From: Shinella zoogloeoides
GTDB lineage: Bacteria; Pseudomonadota; Alphaproteobacteria; Rhizobiales; Rhizobiaceae
NCBI RefSeq assembly: GCF_003574625.1
Contig: NZ_QNUJ01000006.1
Coordinates: 248,001-312,000, forward strand
Length of the DNA stretch: 64,000 nt
Reading direction: 5' to 3'
Under the pieces are notes generated by a model. The model was not told where the DNA came from and searched no databases. It saw only the letters and a list, made by a program, of their open reading frames with translations. Position 1 is the stretch's first letter, and every line of letters begins with the position of its first letter. Position numbers and translations under genes: made by a program. Positions 2,110 to 26,895 of this stretch are shown piece after piece.

Positions 2110-3261
2110 TCAGACCGCGATGAAATCGAGGCCGTAGCGGGACAGCGCCTTCGGCGTGTCGGTGGTGGTAAGATAGGTCTGGCCGAGCGTCATGGCCGTC
2201 GCGCTCTCCGAATCGAGCACGATCGTGTGCAGGAAGAGCGACATGTTCGGCTCGATTTCCTGCGGGTTGCCCATCAGGAACATCTGCGGGTCCATCCAGG
2301 AGGGCGCAAAGCGCGCGCCGACGGAATAGCCGCAGGTGTTCAGCCGGTGGCGGGCAAGGCCGCGCTCGTCGACGATGCGGGCGAAGGTCTCGAAGACGGT
2401 GCCGAAAGTATGGCCGGGACGCAGCACCATCTCCATCGCCTGCATGGCCTCGCGGCAGGCGCTGTAGAGTTCGCGGTGGCGGCTGCTCGGCTCGCCGATC
2501 AGCGCCGTGCGCATCATCGGCGCGTGGTAGCGCGCGCTGACGCCCGACCATTCGATGGTGAGCTGGTCGGTCGCATCGAGCCGGCGGCGGCCGGACTTGG
2601 AGCGGCAGAGCAGCGCGTCGGCGCCCGAGCCGATGACGAATTCGTTCGCGGCGTAATCGCCGCCGCCAGCAAGCACCGCGTTCTGCAGCGCCGCCAGGAT
2701 CGCCGCCTCGTCGGCGCCGGCGGCGATCAGCGGCAGGGCGGCGTCCAGCGCATCGTCGGAAAGGGCGGCCGCGCGCTCGACATAGGCGATTTCCGCCGGG
2801 CTCTTGATGAGGCGCAGGCGGCTGACGAGCGTGGAGGCGTCGACGATCTCGCCGAAGCTCTGGAGCTGGTTGTCGAGGAGGCGTGCATTGCGGCCGGTCA
2901 GGCCGTGCGTGTCGTATTCCACGCCGATGCGGCAGCCGAGCAGGTCGAGATCGGACAGGAGGTTCTTCAGGTCCATGGTCGGGTCCGCGTTCACGCGGTC
3001 GATCCAGACCTCGATCTTCTCGATATTGGAGGTGTGGCGCGCCTGGCGCAGGTCCGCCGAGCGGGTGAGCAGCACCATGCTGCCATCGGCCTTGACGACC
3101 AGAGTCTGGAAGAAGAAGTAGCCGAACGTATCGTAGCCCGTCAGCCAGTACATGCTCTCCTGCGCGAAGAGCAGCATGGCGTCGAGCTTTTCCTCCCGCA
3201 TGCGGGAGGTCAGGCGCTGGAGCCGGTTGGCGTATTCCTCGCTATCGAAGTGAAGTGCCAT
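2110..3261 (-). CDS. M24 (pita-bread fold) hydrolase, creatinase/ectoine-hydrolase-like, lacking metal ligands
   Basis: A 383-residue protein with a creatinase-type N-terminal domain (about 10-145) and a C-terminal pita-bread domain (about 155-375), the architecture of Xaa-Pro dipeptidase, creatinase and ectoine hydrolase DoeA. The peptidase metal ligands appear lost: the first Asp is Glu (TIEWSG), the Asp of the GDxTRT-type motif is Pro (HAPMMRT), the His of the SHxxG-type motif is Tyr (CGYSVG), and the EPG Glu is His (LFLHTI). It is therefore unlikely to be a conventional metal-dependent peptidase and more likely cleaves a small amide or amidine. Creatinase, in the same fold, works without metal. 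The substrate is unknown, and the neighbours do not reveal it. Confidence 0.75.
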   Translation of the reverse strand: MALHFDSEEYANRLQRLTSRMREEKLDAMLLFAQESMYWLTGYDTFGYFFFQTLVVKADGSMVLLTRSADLRQARHTSNIEKIEVWIDRVNADPTMDLKNLLSDLDLLGCRIGVEYDTHGLTGRNARLLDNQLQSFGEIVDASTLVSRLRLIKSPAEIAYVERAAALSDDALDAALPLIAAGADEAAILAALQNAVLAGGGDYAANEFVIGSGADALLCRSKSGRRRLDATDQLTIEWSGVSARYHAPMMRTALIGEPSSRHRELYSACREAMQAMEMVLRPGHTFGTVFETFARIVDERGLARHRLNTCGYSVGARFAPSWMDPQMFLMGNPQEIEPNMSLFLHTIVLDSESATAMTLGQTYLTTTDTPKALSRYGLDFIAV

Positions 3262-3288
3262 GGCGGTGTCTCCTTCGCTTGCGGGGTT

Positions 3289-4080
3289 TCAGCCCCTTAG
3301 CATGATCGCTGAAATCTGGCGGCCGTAATCGGGTTCCTGCCGGTGGGTCGTGCGCCGGTAGGAGAAGAACCGCTCTTCGTCGGGATAGGTGCAGAGGTCG
3401 AGGTTCTCGGCCGTCACGCCGGCGTCGGCGAGGCGCTGCGTTGTCAGCCCCGGCAGGTCGAACATGGCGTGGCCGGGCTTTTCGGACGGCGTGAAGTAGC
3501 GCTCGTAAGCCTTGTCCACGCCGAGGAAGCGTTCGACGAATTCCGGGCCGACCTCGTAGTTGCGGCGGCTGATCGAGGGGCCGAGGCTGGCGAGGATGCT
3601 GCCGCGCTTCGCGCCGAGCCTTTCCATGGCCGTTATGGTGTTTTCGAGGACGCCGTAGAGCGCGCCCTTCCAGCCCGCATGGGCGGCGCCGACGACGCGG
3701 GCCTCGGGATCGCAGAAGAGGATCGGGCCGCAATCGGCGGCGAGGACACCGAGGACGACGCCGGGCGTGGCGCTGACCAGCGCGTCCGCCTCCGGGCGCG
3801 ATCCGTCATAGGTCTCGTCGACGATGACGACATCGGGCGAGTGGACCTGGTGCACGGTGGCGAGCCGGCCGGGCTCCGCCGAGAACCAGCGCGCGACGCG
3901 GGCGCGATTCTCCTCGACCTTGCCGCGCTCGTCCTTCGAGCCGAGGCCGACATTGAGGCCGCGATAGATGCCTTCGGACACGCCGCCGGCGCGGGTGAAG
4001 AACCCGTGCAGGGCCGCTTTTCCGGCGCGTTCCGCAAGCAGCGGGCTTTCGATGGGCGTTGGGGGCGCTTGGTCCTTCAT
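3289..4080 (-). CDS. pgeF: Peptidoglycan-editing factor / multicopper-type purine nucleoside phosphorylase (YfiH/PgeF, DUF152)
   Basis: A 263-residue DUF152 protein. Characterised family members act as zinc/copper enzymes on purine nucleosides, and the E. coli homologue YfiH/PgeF is linked to correct peptidoglycan composition. The metal-binding signature is intact: His in TVHQVHSPD, Cys in LAADCGPI and His in GAAHAGWKG. The start was set at MKDQAPP (4080), trimming 18 residues of an upstream extension that shows no family similarity. It is the distal gene of a minus-strand run lgt-midA-pgeF, 99 bases after the methyltransferase stop, an order consistent with co-transcription. Confidence 0.88.
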   Translation of the reverse strand: MKDQAPPTPIESPLLAERAGKAALHGFFTRAGGVSEGIYRGLNVGLGSKDERGKVEENRARVARWFSAEPGRLATVHQVHSPDVVIVDETYDGSRPEADALVSATPGVVLGVLAADCGPILFCDPEARVVGAAHAGWKGALYGVLENTITAMERLGAKRGSILASLGPSISRRNYEVGPEFVERFLGVDKAYERYFTPSEKPGHAMFDLPGLTTQRLADAGVTAENLDLCTYPDEERFFSYRRTTHRQEPDYGRQISAIMLRG

Positions 4081-4179
4081 GGTCTCTCGGCTGGCTTCGG
4101 GCTGGGCCGCCAGGCAAGGATGTCGCCGGGGCATGCGGGGTCAAATCGGGCCGAATGTTGTCCGGCCTTGGCTTATGTG

Positions 4180-5280
4180 TCAATCGGGCTGACGGAACGG
4201 AAAGAGGGCGAGCGGTGCGCTGCCGACGGCCAGCACCTTGAAAAGATCGCCCATTTTCCCCGCGCCCGAGCCTGCGAGACGGTCGACATCGGCGAGGATC
4301 GATTGCTGCGTCGCCTCGTCGCGGTTGCGGCCGAGCGCGGAGGCGCGTTCGCCGATGCCGAGGCCGACGAGGAAATCGCCCTGGTGCAGCATGCCGTGCA
4401 CATGAAGGCCCGCGCCGACGGCCGCGCCCGCCAGCCGCTCGAAGTCCACATGGCTCGTCAGGTCGGCCTCGCCGGGATGGGCGAGCGGCGGGTCGAAATC
4501 GTGCTTCAGCACGGCCTGCAGCGTATCGCCGAAGCCGGTGACGAAATGGCCGTAGTCGATGACGAGCGCCGTGCCGCCGCAGCGGGCGATGCGCTCGCCG
4601 ATCGTCGCCATGACGGCTTCGCGGGCCGGGGCGATCTCGAAGATCGTGCCGTTTTCGGCCGTCCTGTGATGCTCCGGCAGCAGCGCCGGGTCGATGCCGG
4701 CAACGCCCGCGGCGAAGGTGAGCTCGTCCTCGGCGTCGAGGCCGACCATGCGCTCGCGGAAGCCGGAAGCGGTCTTGATGAACTGGCGGATCGGGATGGC
4801 GTCGAAGAGCTCGTTGGCGGCGAGCAGCACGAAGCCTTCCGGCAGTTCCTCGAAGCTGTCGTGCCAGGCGACGCGCGCGGCATGGGTGCCCAGCGTCTCG
4901 CGCTGGACGGTGCGCAGTTTCGGGCTCGTCTCGATGAGATGGATCGTCGCGCTCTCGTAGAGCTCGGGGGCGATGCGGGAGACGACGCGCAGCATGTCGG
5001 CCATCATCGTGCCGCGGCCGGGGCCGATCTCGGCGATGCGCACCGTCTCGGGCGCGCCGTGCCTTTGCCATGCATGGACGAGGAAGACGCCGAGCATCTC
5101 GCCGAAAAGCTGGCTGACCTCCGGCGCGGTGATGAAATCGCCGGCCTCGCCGAAGGGGTCGCGCGTGCGGTAGTAGCCATAGGCGGGGTCCGCGAGGCAC
5201 AGGGCGAAATAGTCGGTCACGCTGATGGGGCCGTTGGTGCGGATCAGCGCCTTGATCTTGCGGGCGAGGGGCGTCGTCAT
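4180..5280 (-). CDS. Class I SAM-dependent methyltransferase, MidA/NDUFAF7 family (COG1565)
   Basis: A 366-residue protein of the family whose mitochondrial member NDUFAF7 dimethylates an arginine of complex I subunit NDUFS2 during assembly; the bacterial member may act likewise on NuoD, which is inference. The SAM-binding motif is IAEIGPGRGTMMADML near residue 75, followed by ANELFDAIP. The start MTTPLARK at 5280 lies 13 bases after the lgt stop codon, indicating an operon. The longer opening to 5460 overlaps lgt and was rejected. Confidence 0.88.
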   Translation of the reverse strand: MTTPLARKIKALIRTNGPISVTDYFALCLADPAYGYYRTRDPFGEAGDFITAPEVSQLFGEMLGVFLVHAWQRHGAPETVRIAEIGPGRGTMMADMLRVVSRIAPELYESATIHLIETSPKLRTVQRETLGTHAARVAWHDSFEELPEGFVLLAANELFDAIPIRQFIKTASGFRERMVGLDAEDELTFAAGVAGIDPALLPEHHRTAENGTIFEIAPAREAVMATIGERIARCGGTALVIDYGHFVTGFGDTLQAVLKHDFDPPLAHPGEADLTSHVDFERLAGAAVGAGLHVHGMLHQGDFLVGLGIGERASALGRNRDEATQQSILADVDRLAGSGAGKMGDLFKVLAVGSAPLALFPFRQPD

Positions 5281-5293
5281 GGCGTTGGTCCGC

Positions 5294-6136
5294 TCAGGCC
5301 CTTGCGGGCTCGGCCCGGCGGGCGCGGATGATCGCCCACAGGCCGACGACGAGCATCGGCAGCGACAGCAGCATGCCCATGGTGAGCCAGCCGCCGTAGA
5401 GATAGCCGAGCTGCGGGTCGGGCTCGCGGAAGAATTCCACGGCGATGCGCGACAGCGCATAGCCGCAGACGAAGAGGCCGGTGACGATACCCGGGCGCTT
5501 CAGTGCGCCGAAGCGGTAGATTGCGAGCGCCAGCACGGCGAGCAGGACGATGCCCTCGAGGCCGGCTTCATAAAGCTGGCTCGGATGGCGCGCGAAGGGG
5601 CCGGCTTCCGGGAAGACGACGGCCCAGGGCGCATCGGACAGGCGGCCCCACAGCTCGCCGTTGACGAAATTGGCGATGCGGCCGAAGAACAGGCCGATCG
5701 GCACCACGGCGGCGACGATGTCGAAGAGGCTCCAGATCGGGATGCGGTTGCGCCGGGCGAAGAGGATCATGGCGAGCGTCGTGCCGGCGAAGCCGCCGTG
5801 GAACGACATGCCGCCGTTCCAGACCTTTATGGCGCGCAGCGGATCGGCGGCGACATTCGGGAAGTCGTAGAAGAGGATATAGCCGACGCGGCCGCCGAGG
5901 ATGATGCCGACGGCGGCCCAGACGAGGAAGTCGTCGAGCATGGCGCGCGTCATCGGCGCTTCGCCCGCCCACAATCGCGGCGTCTCGATCAGCCGGCGGG
6001 CATAGAGCCAGCCGAGCATGATGCCGACGACATAGGCGATGCCGTACCAGTGGACGGCGACCGGGCCGATCGAGAAGGCGATCGGGTCGATCTCGGGAAA
6101 GGGCATGATGGCGAAGAGTTGCGCTATATTCGTCAA
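5294..6136 (-). CDS. lgt: Prolipoprotein diacylglyceryl transferase
   Basis: A 280-residue inner-membrane enzyme that transfers diacylglycerol from phosphatidylglycerol to the lipobox Cys of prolipoproteins, the first step of lipoprotein maturation. Seven hydrophobic segments and the family motifs [25 protein letters not shown] and RHPSQLYEA are intact. The start given is a TTG at 6136; an ATG at 6106 (MPFPEIDP) would remove ten residues, and neither has a strong Shine-Dalgarno. It is the first gene of the lgt-midA-pgeF run. Lipoprotein substrates in this window include the products at 1229-2008 and 60942-61514. Confidence 0.95.
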
Positions 6137-23837: not shown

Positions 23838-24143
23838 TCAAAGGGCGCCGTTGATGTGGTGGAGAAAGGCCGCGATCTTTTCTTCGTCGCGTTTGAAGAA
23901 CACCCACTGGCCGACCTTGCGCGTCGTCACGAGGCCGGCGCGCTGGAGGGTGGCGAGATGGGCGGAAACGGTGGACTGCGAAAGATCGCAGCGCTTTTCG
24001 ATCTGGCCGGCGCAGACGCCGAATTCCAGCGGGTGCTCCTGGCCGGCGAAATGCTGCTGTGGCTCCTTCAGCCAGGCGAGGATCTCCATCCGCTTGGGAT
24101 GGGCGAGGGCCTTGAGGATTTCGTCGGTGTCGGGCGTGGTCAT
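23838..24143 (-). CDS. ArsR-family winged-helix repressor
   Basis: A 101-residue regulator beginning MTTPDTDEILKALAHPKRME. The recognition helix region is LSQSTVSAHLATLQRAGLV near residues 55-75. A Cys in FGVCAGQIEKRCDLS gives two thiols close together, which could sense electrophiles or metals. The upstream extension to 24260 overlaps the sRNA terminator region and was rejected. It precedes the OYE gene on the same strand and probably represses its own operon. Confidence 0.88.
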   Translation of the reverse strand: MTTPDTDEILKALAHPKRMEILAWLKEPQQHFAGQEHPLEFGVCAGQIEKRCDLSQSTVSAHLATLQRAGLVTTRKVGQWVFFKRDEEKIAAFLHHINGAL

Positions 24144-24222
24144 CTCTATCGTGATCCGGCGATGGTTATATCGTCTGATCTCGATATCGGGTTCGCCGTT
24201 CGGCGATACAAGAGGCGTCGGC

Positions 24223-24340
24223 AAAAAAAGAGGGCCACAAGCGAAGCTTGGGCCCTGCAAGTTTGAAGGTTAAAGAACCTCCAGAGGGGAACAGCCAGCG
24301 CGCGGTACTGGGAGGAGAAAGACCGCGGATGCGCCGGCTG
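24223..24340 (-). ncRNA. AbcR-type trans-acting sRNA, copy A (alpha-r15 family)
   Basis: A predicted minus-strand transcript of about 118 nt. It starts after a promoter at 24346-24374. The 5' hairpin (outer stem GAACAGCC/GGCTGTTC, inner stem CGCGGT/ACCGCG) displays a loop containing CCTCCCAGT, the CUCCCA anti-Shine-Dalgarno motif of AbcR RNAs. A second single-stranded region carries CUGGAGG. It ends in a terminator formed by AGGGCC...GGCCCT with a CAAGC-GAA-GCTTG apical stem and a seven-U tail (complement of 24223-24229). AbcR1/AbcR2 repress ABC-transporter mRNAs with Hfq in Agrobacterium and Sinorhizobium. Confidence 0.85.
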
Positions 24341-24345
24341 TTCTA

Positions 24346-24374
24346 GATATGGGGGAGGGGCCGGCATTCTTCAA
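24346..24374 (-). promoter_or_regulatory. Sigma-70 promoter of AbcR-type sRNA copy A
   Basis: On the minus strand TTGAAG (24374-24369) and CATATC (24351-24346) are separated by exactly 17 bases, placing the transcript start near 24340. Confidence 0.65.
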
Positions 24375-24434
24375 GAGAAGCGCGTGCCAAGTTTTCCGGG
24401 AAGGGTGGAAATTCCTTTCCGGTGAACGGAAGGC

Positions 24435-24555
24435 AAAAAAAGAGGGCCGCAAGATCAACTTGGGCCCTTTATAGTTTTGAAGGTAATAAAACCTCCAGAG
24501 GGGAACAGCTGGTGCGGTGGCACTGGGAGGAAAAAGCCACCAAAGTGCATCAGCT
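24435..24555 (-). ncRNA. AbcR-type trans-acting sRNA, copy B (alpha-r15 family)
   Basis: A second minus-strand transcript of about 121 nt, homologous to copy A in layout: a 5' hairpin (CAGCTG outer, GGTGGC/GCCACC inner) with CCTCCCAGT in the loop, the shared middle containing CTGGAGGTTTT, and a GGGCCC-type terminator with CAAG/CTTG apex and a seven-U tail (complement of 24435-24441). Sequence outside the loop, middle and terminator has diverged, with stem base pairs changed together, which supports a conserved RNA structure. It is nearest to the LysR gene; in Brucella the LysR protein VtlR activates abcR2. Confidence 0.85.
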
Positions 24556-24561
24556 GCGCGT

Positions 24562-24590
24562 CATATGCTGGTTTTTTGGGCATGCATCAA
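24562..24590 (-). promoter_or_regulatory. Sigma-70 promoter of AbcR-type sRNA copy B
   Basis: On the minus strand TTGATG (24590-24585) and CATATG (24567-24562) are separated by 17 bases, giving a start near 24555. The 50 bases upstream, next to the lsrB-like gene, include GCATGC palindromes that could bind a LysR-type activator. Confidence 0.65.
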
Positions 24591-24646
24591 TCCGTTAATG
24601 TGCATGCCAGCCATGCGCGGGGCGCAGGCCTTGCCGAAAGCCGTCC

Positions 24647-25543
24647 TCAGAAGTTCCAGTTGCGCGCCTTGGCGACGATGAAGTCGCGGAAAACCTTGAG
24701 CTTCGCCGCGTTCTTCATCTCGCTCGGATAGCAGAAATAGGTGTCGAACGAGGGAATGTCGGCGCTCACCGGCAGCTGGATCAGCCCGGGATCGCGCCCG
24801 ACGATATAGTCCGGCAGCATGGCGATGCCGATGCCGAGCAGGCAGGCGCGCTTGATCGAGGTCTGGCTGTTGATCTGCAGCACGGAGGGGCGGGGATTGT
24901 CGGAATCGCGCCCGGCGATCTCCAGCCAGTTGACGTCGAGCAGGTAGCTCGGTGCAGGCTCGCCGAAGGTGATGATCTTGTGGTTGTCGAGATCGTCGAT
25001 CGACTGCGGCTCGCCGTAGCGGTTGATGTAGGAGGGGGCGGCGTAGAGGTGCATGTGCACCGTGAACAGCCGGCGCTGGATGAGATCCGACTGCTGCGGC
25101 TCGCGCAGGCGGATGGCGCAGTCGGCATGGCGCATGTTCACGTCCAGCTCCTCGTTGTCGAGGATGAGCTGCACCTGCATGTCCGGATAAAGCGCGAGGA
25201 ATTCCTGCACCTTGTCCGTCAGCCAGCCCTGGCCGAGGCCGACGGTGGTGGTGATGCGCAGCTTGCCGCTCGGCTTCTCGGTGTTTTCCGTCAGCTGCAC
25301 GCGCACGCTTTCGAGCTTCATCAGCACGTCGTGGGCGGCGCGATAGAGAATCTCGCCCTGCTCGGTGAGGATCAGGCCGCGGGCATGGCGGTGGAAGAGC
25401 TTGATGCCGACATCCTGCTCCAGCGCACTCACCTGGCGGCTGATGGCCGATTGAGAAAGGTGCAGCTTGTCTGCGGCGTGCGTGAACGAGCCGGCCTCGG
25501 CCGCGGCGTGAAAAATCCGCAGCTTGTCCCAATCGAGCGGCAT
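24647..25543 (-). CDS. lsrB: LysR-family regulator, LsrB/VtlR-like
   Basis: A 298-residue LysR regulator with an N-terminal winged helix (about 5-62, FTHAADKLHLSQSAISRQVS) and a two-lobe substrate-binding domain. It contains Cys in MRHADCAIRLRE and in IKRACLLG, positions of interest because LsrB of S. meliloti is redox-sensitive. Position beside tandem AbcR sRNAs and trxB matches lsrB of S. meliloti and vtlR of Agrobacterium and Brucella, which supports the name. ATG 25543 (MPLDWDKLRIF), with GGGGGAT upstream, was preferred over ATG 25555, which lacks a Shine-Dalgarno. Confidence 0.85.
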   Translation of the reverse strand: MPLDWDKLRIFHAAAEAGSFTHAADKLHLSQSAISRQVSALEQDVGIKLFHRHARGLILTEQGEILYRAAHDVLMKLESVRVQLTENTEKPSGKLRITTTVGLGQGWLTDKVQEFLALYPDMQVQLILDNEELDVNMRHADCAIRLREPQQSDLIQRRLFTVHMHLYAAPSYINRYGEPQSIDDLDNHKIITFGEPAPSYLLDVNWLEIAGRDSDNPRPSVLQINSQTSIKRACLLGIGIAMLPDYIVGRDPGLIQLPVSADIPSFDTYFCYPSEMKNAAKLKVFRDFIVAKARNWNF

Positions 25544-25657
25544 TCTATCCCCCATATGTCTGTGCGGCGGGGAGCGCGTGCCTCCCGCCCGGTCGCTGAT
25601 ACTACTGTTCCCACGCGGGCGGTCGGATGCGAATCCGCCGCCCTTTGTTGGCGGCTT

Positions 25658-26647
25658 CTACTCGGCCGCAATTGCGACAGGCATATGACCTGCAAGGTAT
25701 TTTTCGGTTTCGAGGGCCGCCATGCAGCCCATGCCGGCGGCCGTGACCGCCTGGCGATAGATGTCGTCCGTGACGTCGCCTGCGGCAAAAACGCCCGGCA
25801 CGTCCGTCGCGGTGGAATCGGGCGCGGTCCAGAGGTAGCCGTTCGGCTTCTGGCGCAGCTTGCCCTTGAAGAGTTCCACTGCCGGCGCGTGGCCGATGGC
25901 GACGAAGACACCGTCCGTTTCCACATCGCGCGTCTCGCCGGTCTTCACGTTGCGCAGCGTCACGCCGTTGACGGAGGCCGGCATCGGCGGCTTGGGCTCG
26001 GCGCCGAGATATTCGACGACCTCGTGGTCCCAGACGACCTTGACGTTTTCCTTGGCGAACAGGCGCTCCTGCAGGATCTTTTCCGAGCGGAACGAATCGC
26101 GGCGGTGCACGACCGTCACGGTTTTCGCGAGATTGGCGAGGTAGAGCGCTTCCTCCACGGCCGAATTGCCGCCGCCGACCACGATGACGTCCTTGCCGCG
26201 GTAGAAGAAGCCGTCGCAGGTGGCGCAGGCCGAAACGCCGAAGCCCATGAACTTATGCTCGGTGTCGATGCCGAGCCACTTGGCCTTGGCGCCGGTGGCG
26301 ATGATGAGCGCATCGGCGGTCCACTCGGTTCCGCTGTCGGTGGAGATGCGGAAGGGACGCACGTCGAGGTCGACATTGGTGACGAGGTCGTTGACGATCT
26401 CGGCGCCGACATGCTCCGCCTGCTTGAGCATCTGCTCCATCATCCAGGGACCCTGCACCGGATCGGCATAGCCCGGATAGTTTTCCACATCCGTGGTGAT
26501 CATGAGCTGGCCGCCCTGTTCCATGCCGGCGATCAGCACCGGCTCCAGCATGGCGCGGGCGGTGTAGATGGCGGCGGTGTAGCCGGCGGGGCCGGAGCCG
26601 ATGATCAGCACCTTGACGTGACGGGCGGAAGCAGGGCGGGCGGACAT
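25658..26647 (-). CDS. trxB: Thioredoxin-disulfide reductase
   Basis: A 329-residue flavoprotein that reduces thioredoxin with NADPH. The FAD-binding motif IIGSGPAGYTAAIYTARA is near residue 15, the redox-active CATC (SACATCDGFFY) near 143, the NADPH motif VVGGGNSAVEEAL near 162, and the second FAD motif GVFAAGDVTD near 290. The start MSARPASARH at 26647 has a GGAAGGA ribosome-binding site. It lies upstream of lsrB on the same strand, 114 bases apart; the pairing fits oxidative-stress control by LsrB. Confidence 0.95.
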   Translation of the reverse strand: MSARPASARHVKVLIIGSGPAGYTAAIYTARAMLEPVLIAGMEQGGQLMITTDVENYPGYADPVQGPWMMEQMLKQAEHVGAEIVNDLVTNVDLDVRPFRISTDSGTEWTADALIIATGAKAKWLGIDTEHKFMGFGVSACATCDGFFYRGKDVIVVGGGNSAVEEALYLANLAKTVTVVHRRDSFRSEKILQERLFAKENVKVVWDHEVVEYLGAEPKPPMPASVNGVTLRNVKTGETRDVETDGVFVAIGHAPAVELFKGKLRQKPNGYLWTAPDSTATDVPGVFAAGDVTDDIYRQAVTAAGMGCMAALETEKYLAGHMPVAIAAE

Positions 26648-26895
26648 GGTCGTTCCTTCCGGGGCCATCGCCCCAATCGGCCCTGCGCGCGGTCTCGCGC
26701 ATGGCAGAGCCAGCGTGTCTGTGTTCGATCCTCATTTATGAGGGGAGTCGACCGAGTTTCAAGAGCTCGCGGCGGTTTGCCAACAGACAAGCAAAGCCCC
26801 GTGACATATTTGTGCCGCTTGGGGTAACAATGTTGCGCCGATGCGACGATTCGGGTTACTTCCGGTCGCCATTCCGAAAGGTTTCAAAAGCTCCC

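Follow-up and report, generated by a model that had tools for sequence, protein, structure and literature searches.

AbcR1 and AbcR2, small RNAs (sRNAs) of the ar15 family, have been described in several relatives of Shinella. In A. tumefaciens C58, as in the stretch of DNA studied here, the gene order is trxB-vtlR-abcR1-abcR2-arsR, VtlR being LsrB, and VtlR is reported to bind and activate the abcR1 promoter while AbcR2 is unaffected (PMC7486931). In S. meliloti the two genes are arranged in tandem between an arsR-type gene and lsrB (PMC8844928; PMC3712013), with independent start sites (PMC3712013). There, PabcR1 contains an LsrB box, GCAT-N3-TG-N3-T, at -61 to -49 and PabcR2 an RpoH1 promoter, CTTGAA-N16-CCTATAT, and a targeting role is assigned to the motifs aSD1 CUCCUCCC and aSD2 UUCCCCUC (PMC8844928). 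LsrB/VtlR is described as having no control over AbcR2 in either Agrobacterium or S. meliloti (PMC7486931, PMC8844928). The sources conflict on S. meliloti AbcR1: AbcR is unchanged in an lsrB mutant according to one (PMC7486931), whereas AbcR1 is clearly LsrB-dependent in the other (PMC8844928).

Other described systems resemble the Shinella locus less closely. In Brucella abortus only one of the two sRNAs, AbcR2, is under VtlR, and the two genes are located on different chromosomes, in contrast to the tandem found here (PMC7486931). Three AbcR homologues are listed for S. meliloti in a review (PMC7143759), against four in the Shinella genome. NfeR1 (ar14) of S. meliloti is likewise an sRNA of the aSD type that LsrB binds and activates via a similar box, although it belongs to another family, contains three aSD motifs and is also repressed by NtrC (PMC10746234). 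The command of several sRNAs by LsrB is therefore already published.

The AbcR locus of Shinella

The window is a stretch of 64,000 nucleotides of a Shinella genome, and it contains the gene order trxB-lsrB-abcR1-abcR2-arsR, the one published for A. tumefaciens (PMC7486931). Judged from its sequence, this is the known AbcR1/AbcR2 locus in another genus; the novelty implied by the original prediction finds no support, as the same locus has been published in related genera. The gene lsrB (24647..25555, minus strand) encodes a LysR regulator of the lsrB/vtlR type with 302 aa and the Pfam domains HTH_1 and LysR_substrate, the presumed activator of the proximal sRNA copy. The protein is 91% identical to its S. 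meliloti 4H41 counterpart, and its identity with LsrB proteins from named Shinella species reaches 98%, which places the window in Shinella or very near it. Upstream of lsrB is the conserved neighbour trxB, a thioredoxin reductase gene (25658..26668, minus strand; TIGR01292 over the cut-off), and an NADH:flavin oxidoreductase also neighbours the locus. An ArsR-type regulator with 101 aa from its ATG (23838..24143, minus strand; Pfam HTH_20 and HTH_5, NCBIfam HTH_metalloreg over the cut-off) lies downstream of the distal copy. A longer frame for this regulator, started by TTG at 24260, was rejected in favour of the ATG at 24143 because it overlaps the distal terminator.

Between the lsrB stop at 24647 and the arsR ATG at 24143, placed by eye, a gap of about 500 bp is filled by two RNA-like elements on the minus strand. 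The proximal, AbcR1-type copy (24555-24435) measures 121 nt from its presumed start to the end of the T-run, and the distal, AbcR2-type copy (24339-24223) measures 117 nt, so that two minus-strand copies do occupy the arsR-lsrB gap as had been claimed. The copies are identical in 93 of 121 aligned columns. An Rfam scan of the whole window gave two matches over the cut-off, both to RF02345 (ar15), after the tool had set aside two matches from the same clan with lower scores. The proximal match (24555-24438, minus strand) scores 102.4 bits (E 2.2e-20) and the distal one (24339-24226, minus strand) 94.9 bits (E 1.7e-18), against a gathering cut-off of 40 bits, and both span model positions 1-112 of 112. 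The proposed match of the pair to AbcR1/AbcR2 (alpha-r15) is thereby borne out, and this identity, read from the sequence, is fully supported.

Both targeting motifs are present in each copy and unpaired in single-sequence folds. The aSD1-type motif CCTCCCAGT sits in the loop of stem-loop 1, the 5' hairpin, where it had been predicted, at 24522..24530 in the proximal copy and 24307..24315 in the distal copy (both minus strand). The aSD2-type motif TTCCCCTC, located in the alignment between stem-loops 1 and 2, occupies 24498..24505 in the proximal copy and 24284..24291 in the distal copy, again on the minus strand. In sequence details the pair differs from that of S. meliloti. CTGGAGG, which had been proposed as the second motif, does occur in both copies (24498-24492 and 24284-24278, minus strand). 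Its assignment needs correction, however, since it forms the 5' arm of stem-loop 2, and the motif published as the second targeting one, UUCCCCUC, is unpaired and immediately precedes this arm. The sequence of each copy also confirms the expected GGGCC terminator stem, followed by seven T.

Each copy folds on its own into three hairpins and has a terminator-like end. The fold energies lie 5.5 (proximal) and 5.9 (distal) standard deviations below those of shuffled sequences (z -5.5 and -5.9), and for either copy none of 200 shuffles was as good. Two stem pairs change on both sides between the copies, from U-A to C-G, in agreement with the earlier remark that stem bases differ together. The fold and covariation check extended this to relatives: in an alignment of 40 sequences chosen from 237 ar15 rows, in which the terminator stem was left unpaired, 10 of the 18 predicted pairs, in stem-loops 1 and 2, showed at least one two-sided compensatory change.

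Distribution of the pair

We searched 81 genomes for ar15 under strict filters, by which weak matches are lost, and obtained a match at E 0.001 or better in 46 and over the cut-off in 38. The genome under study and all 19 of the 19 same-genus genomes possess the tandem pair plus at least one further ar15 copy. Among 32 genomes from other families of the order, none contained ar15 over the cut-off, and weaker matches were seen in three.

Two same-genus genomes depart from the usual picture. In one the AbcR pair is split by about 2.8 kb (L127 ~2614-5418), and the insert contains frames resembling, by eye, an NCS1-type permease and a nucleoside deaminase. In the other (G004; L012, L118-L121), six ar15 copies are spread over four contigs.

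Promoters of the two copies

A predicted LsrB/VtlR-type box, GCATGGCTGGCAT (GCAT-N3-TG-N3-T), was recognized by comparison with the published consensus at -61 to -49 of the proximal copy (24604..24616, minus strand), just outside the interval of the original prediction (24223..24590). It is followed by a -35-like hexamer TTGATG (24585..24590, minus strand), which belongs to a block conserved in relatives, and by a -10-like hexamer CATATG (24562..24567, minus strand), of which CATA is conserved in relatives. The distal copy has an RpoH1-type promoter, CTTGAA-N16-CCCATAT (24347..24375, minus strand), one base off the published CTTGAA-N16-CCTATAT, and no LsrB box was found upstream of it. Its -35/-10-like pair, read by eye, is TTGAAG / CATATC. 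The tandem position between an arsR-type gene and lsrB, the box at -61 to -49 and the RpoH1 promoter on AbcR2 are all shared with S. meliloti (PMC8844928). The -35/-10 pair with a 17-bp spacer expected for each copy can be seen in the sequence, yet a generic scan of 24100-24700 for E. coli-type sigma-70 promoters and terminators returned no promoters, thus missing both proximal hexamers, and no terminators. The promoter claim therefore rests on the relatives and the published sites, not on that scan.

Promoter signatures were compared across a locus set of 237 rows from which exact duplicates had been dropped, comprising 85 proximal copies, 88 distal copies, 5 single copies beside lsrB, 46 solo copies and 13 plasmid rows, one of the latter being a chance match within a coding gene that was excluded. 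As the strict LsrB pattern misses 40 of the 85 proximal loci, mostly through a change of the first G to A, we used a relaxed form (CAT-N3-TG-N3-T) and give both counts, which come from mutually related loci, many of them picked by lsrB similarity, and not from independent samples. The relaxed box occurs in 82/85 proximal, 5/5 single-copy lsrB, 8/88 distal and 32/46 solo loci; the strict box is present in 45/85, 5/5, 8/88 and 32/46 of the same classes. A first count with a different anchor had given the strict box in 39/51 solo and 7/88 distal loci, the solo class then including five lsrB-side loci. The strict RpoH pattern was found at 28 of the 88 distal copies, at none of the 85 proximal ones and in no other class. 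The division of the promoters, with the LsrB box on the proximal side and the RpoH pattern on the distal side, is thus kept in relatives.

The idea that the pair lies beside its likely LysR activator is accordingly correct for the proximal copy, with its LsrB box at -61, but it does not carry over to the distal copy, which has an RpoH1-type promoter in place of a box and whose published counterpart AbcR2 is independent of LsrB/VtlR. One could still suppose that the adjacent regulator activates the whole pair, as lsrB is directly upstream and as a box occurs in the 8 of 88 distal copies of relatives noted above, for example in Rhizobium tubonense and R. multihospitium. We regard this as unlikely in view of the signature of the distal window copy and of the independence of AbcR2 from VtlR/LsrB in Agrobacterium and S. 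meliloti (PMC7486931, PMC8844928). The pair is very probably composed of AbcR1 (proximal, LsrB-activated) and AbcR2 (distal, RpoH1-driven), the ar15 sRNAs of Shinella species. Family membership, fold, covariation, gene order and promoter signatures were computed here for the pair, and our reading of its transcription and regulation draws on relatives.

Several Rhizobium-type genomes (L102, L103, L109, L111 and L112) have a distal copy with an LsrB box and without an RpoH-type match, and the division of labour between the copies seems to be lost in them. In Ferirhizobium litorale (L107 ~4012-4740), lsrB adjoins a run of four consecutive AbcR-like copies, and copies three and four have a strict LsrB box.

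Conservation of the upstream regions also bears on whether the two elements are genes in their own right. Among ten-base blocks of the proximal promoters, conservation peaks in the one from -60, at 1.66 bits per column, against 1.52 in the one from -20 and 0.09 to 0.39 in those between -200 and -81. The distal promoters are more variable and more weakly conserved. Since lsrB, the two elements and arsR follow each other in this order on the same strand, the elements could stem from the lsrB mRNA, as 3' fragments left by processing, or form a leader of arsR. That seems most improbable to us, because relatives conserve the promoter region, that of proximal copies strongly and that of distal copies more weakly, each copy has a terminator-like end, and in S. 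meliloti independent start sites have been reported (PMC3712013). Moreover, the two solo copies of this genome retain both promoter and RNA although neither an lsrB nor an arsR frame could be seen within 1.5 kb of them.

The greater variability of the distal promoters would also suit a decaying duplicate that has little function and has been retained by chance, and in Agrobacterium AbcR2 affected 8 genes against almost 100 for AbcR1 (PMC7486931). Decay is nonetheless a very unlikely account of the distal window copy, in which both targeting motifs are intact and the stem changes are compensatory, and a distal copy is present in this genome and in all 19 same-genus genomes.

Further AbcR copies in the same genome

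The genome contains four ar15 copies, namely the tandem pair and two others at C23:111556-111665 and C12:374818-374930; contig C12 also bears repC, and C23 does not. Both extra copies carry a strict LsrB box at -61, and box to CATA spans exactly 53 bp in each of the three boxed copies of this genome. A genome-wide search for the box, 30-45 further bases and CATA gave 16 matches, of which 3 are AbcR promoters, and the reversed pattern used as a control gave 2. The same box at the same distance on the two extra copies suggests that three of the four AbcR copies answer to LsrB. Relative to the A. tumefaciens C58 locus, the Shinella genome thus has two further ar15 copies, both with an LsrB box, the comparison being one of loci.

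AbcR copies on conjugative plasmids

A blastn search with the C23 copy matched 392 of 72,556 plasmid records, 276 of them typed conjugative, although the 392 include some of chromid size and one of 4.6 Mb. In a spread of 60 of these 392 rows, 50 alignments start no later than query base 51, where the box begins, 1 starts inside the box and 9 start further on. We hand-picked 23 plasmid contexts (L154-L176), 4 from the best list and 19 from the 60-row spread, and found the strict box in 21, the relaxed box in 22, the aSD1 motif in 22 and the aSD2 motif in all 23. The 9,890 bases further upstream in these contexts contain only one additional strict box match.

The RNA lies directly behind a giant helicase/methylase gene in 12 of the 23 contexts (L155, L156, L158, L159, L165, L166, L168-L171, L174 and L176), and a ParB-type gene follows downstream on the same strand in 13, the 12 helicase-linked ones and L164; the remaining contexts are varied in their neighbours. 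On Rhizobium etli p42a, the RNA is located about 13 kb from the traC-traA gap, in a stretch that encodes a DUF3991/toprim protein, a large protein matching SNF2/helicase families and, weakly, a methylase, and further a ParB_N and an ArdC-type protein. A 2.3-kb p42a query containing the helicase end, the RNA and the ParB start found matches in 788 plasmid records, and in 259 of these at least 80% of the query was covered. Among the rows listed, many cover about 83% in two pieces, and some plasmids with the module therefore probably lack the RNA. The plasmid module extends beyond the RNA itself.

Plasmid copies such as those on Rhizobium etli p42a and Agrobacterium pusense pA agree with the Shinella solo copies in RNA, box and distance, p42a having the relaxed box only, and differ from them in their location on conjugative plasmids, in 12 of 23 cases directly behind the giant helicase/methylase gene. 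In a tree of 132 short rows the chromosomal pair is separated from a group that unites the plasmid copies with most solo copies; with 15 of 128 branches starred and a long-branch warning, the tree supports at most this broad split. Within the group, plasmid copies are interspersed with solo ones, and some solo copies from other genera are placed outside it. The two extra copies of the present genome appear to belong to the mobile lineage proposed below.

Extrachromosomal ar15 copies as such are known, and a 2012 survey of alpha-proteobacterial sRNA families reportedly placed third ar15 loci on extrachromosomal replicons. The available parts of an older rhizobial sRNA survey are silent on such copies (PMC3927594), and we met no account of the plasmid gene arrangement or of the LsrB box on plasmid copies in the literature covered, which included a minority of the subscription papers. 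The extra copies were probably known already; their recurrent place in a plasmid module and the shared LsrB box may be new.

Proposed regulation and targets

By analogy with the described systems, each sRNA of the pair would be transcribed on its own and work with Hfq. LsrB, the product of the adjacent gene, would activate AbcR1 via the predicted box at -61, and the heat-shock sigma factor RpoH1 would drive AbcR2 in stress or stationary phase. Both RNAs would pair through the CU-rich aSD1 and aSD2 motifs, for which a targeting role is published in S. meliloti (PMC8844928), with ribosome-binding sites and so block translation, and their likely targets would be the mRNAs of ABC-transporter binding proteins and metabolic enzymes. 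Because LsrB and RpoH1 would control AbcR1 and AbcR2 separately and the two RNAs would share targets, one target set would receive two inputs, redox/growth and stress.

Target preference was examined in 562 genes (87 binding-protein genes and 475 others) called with a simple frame caller in 40 stretches of the genome. The pairing energies of the aSD1 and aSD2 cores placed binding-protein genes higher than the others with an AUC of 0.62 each, the cores standing without a shuffled control of their own. Longer seeds gave 0.53, 0.56 and 0.59, Shine-Dalgarno strength alone 0.58 and the 16S tail 0.55. The two longer seeds of AbcR1 (0.53 and 0.56) performed no better or barely better than 60 shuffles each (mean 0.49 and 0.47, highest 0.57 and 0.56). 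The enrichment is weak, runs in the expected direction and is confounded by Shine-Dalgarno strength, and it lends the proposed targets no more than mild support.

We tentatively propose, with considerable doubt, a third and mobile AbcR lineage, in which conjugative plasmids of Rhizobiaceae carry a compact unit, made up of LsrB box, promoter, sRNA and terminator, whose product would act as a host-addressed regulatory RNA in plasmid establishment. Such a unit would often lie between the giant helicase/methylase gene and the ParB-like gene, and on p42a in an ArdC-bearing region beside transfer genes. The switch of the plasmid copy would be read by the chromosomal LsrB of the recipient, and its seeds would equal those of the host AbcRs; an incoming plasmid would thus raise the AbcR dose and so lower the nutrient uptake of the new host under redox stress.

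The window pair extends a known regulatory locus to Shinella, and it revises the view that both RNAs are under the neighbouring LysR protein. Three of the four AbcR copies of this genome and 21 of the 23 plasmid copies have one LsrB box at the same distance. If LsrB does read these copies, several replicons carry sRNAs under a redox regulator encoded on the chromosome, and an sRNA of host type may serve plasmids to tune the metabolism of cells that they enter.
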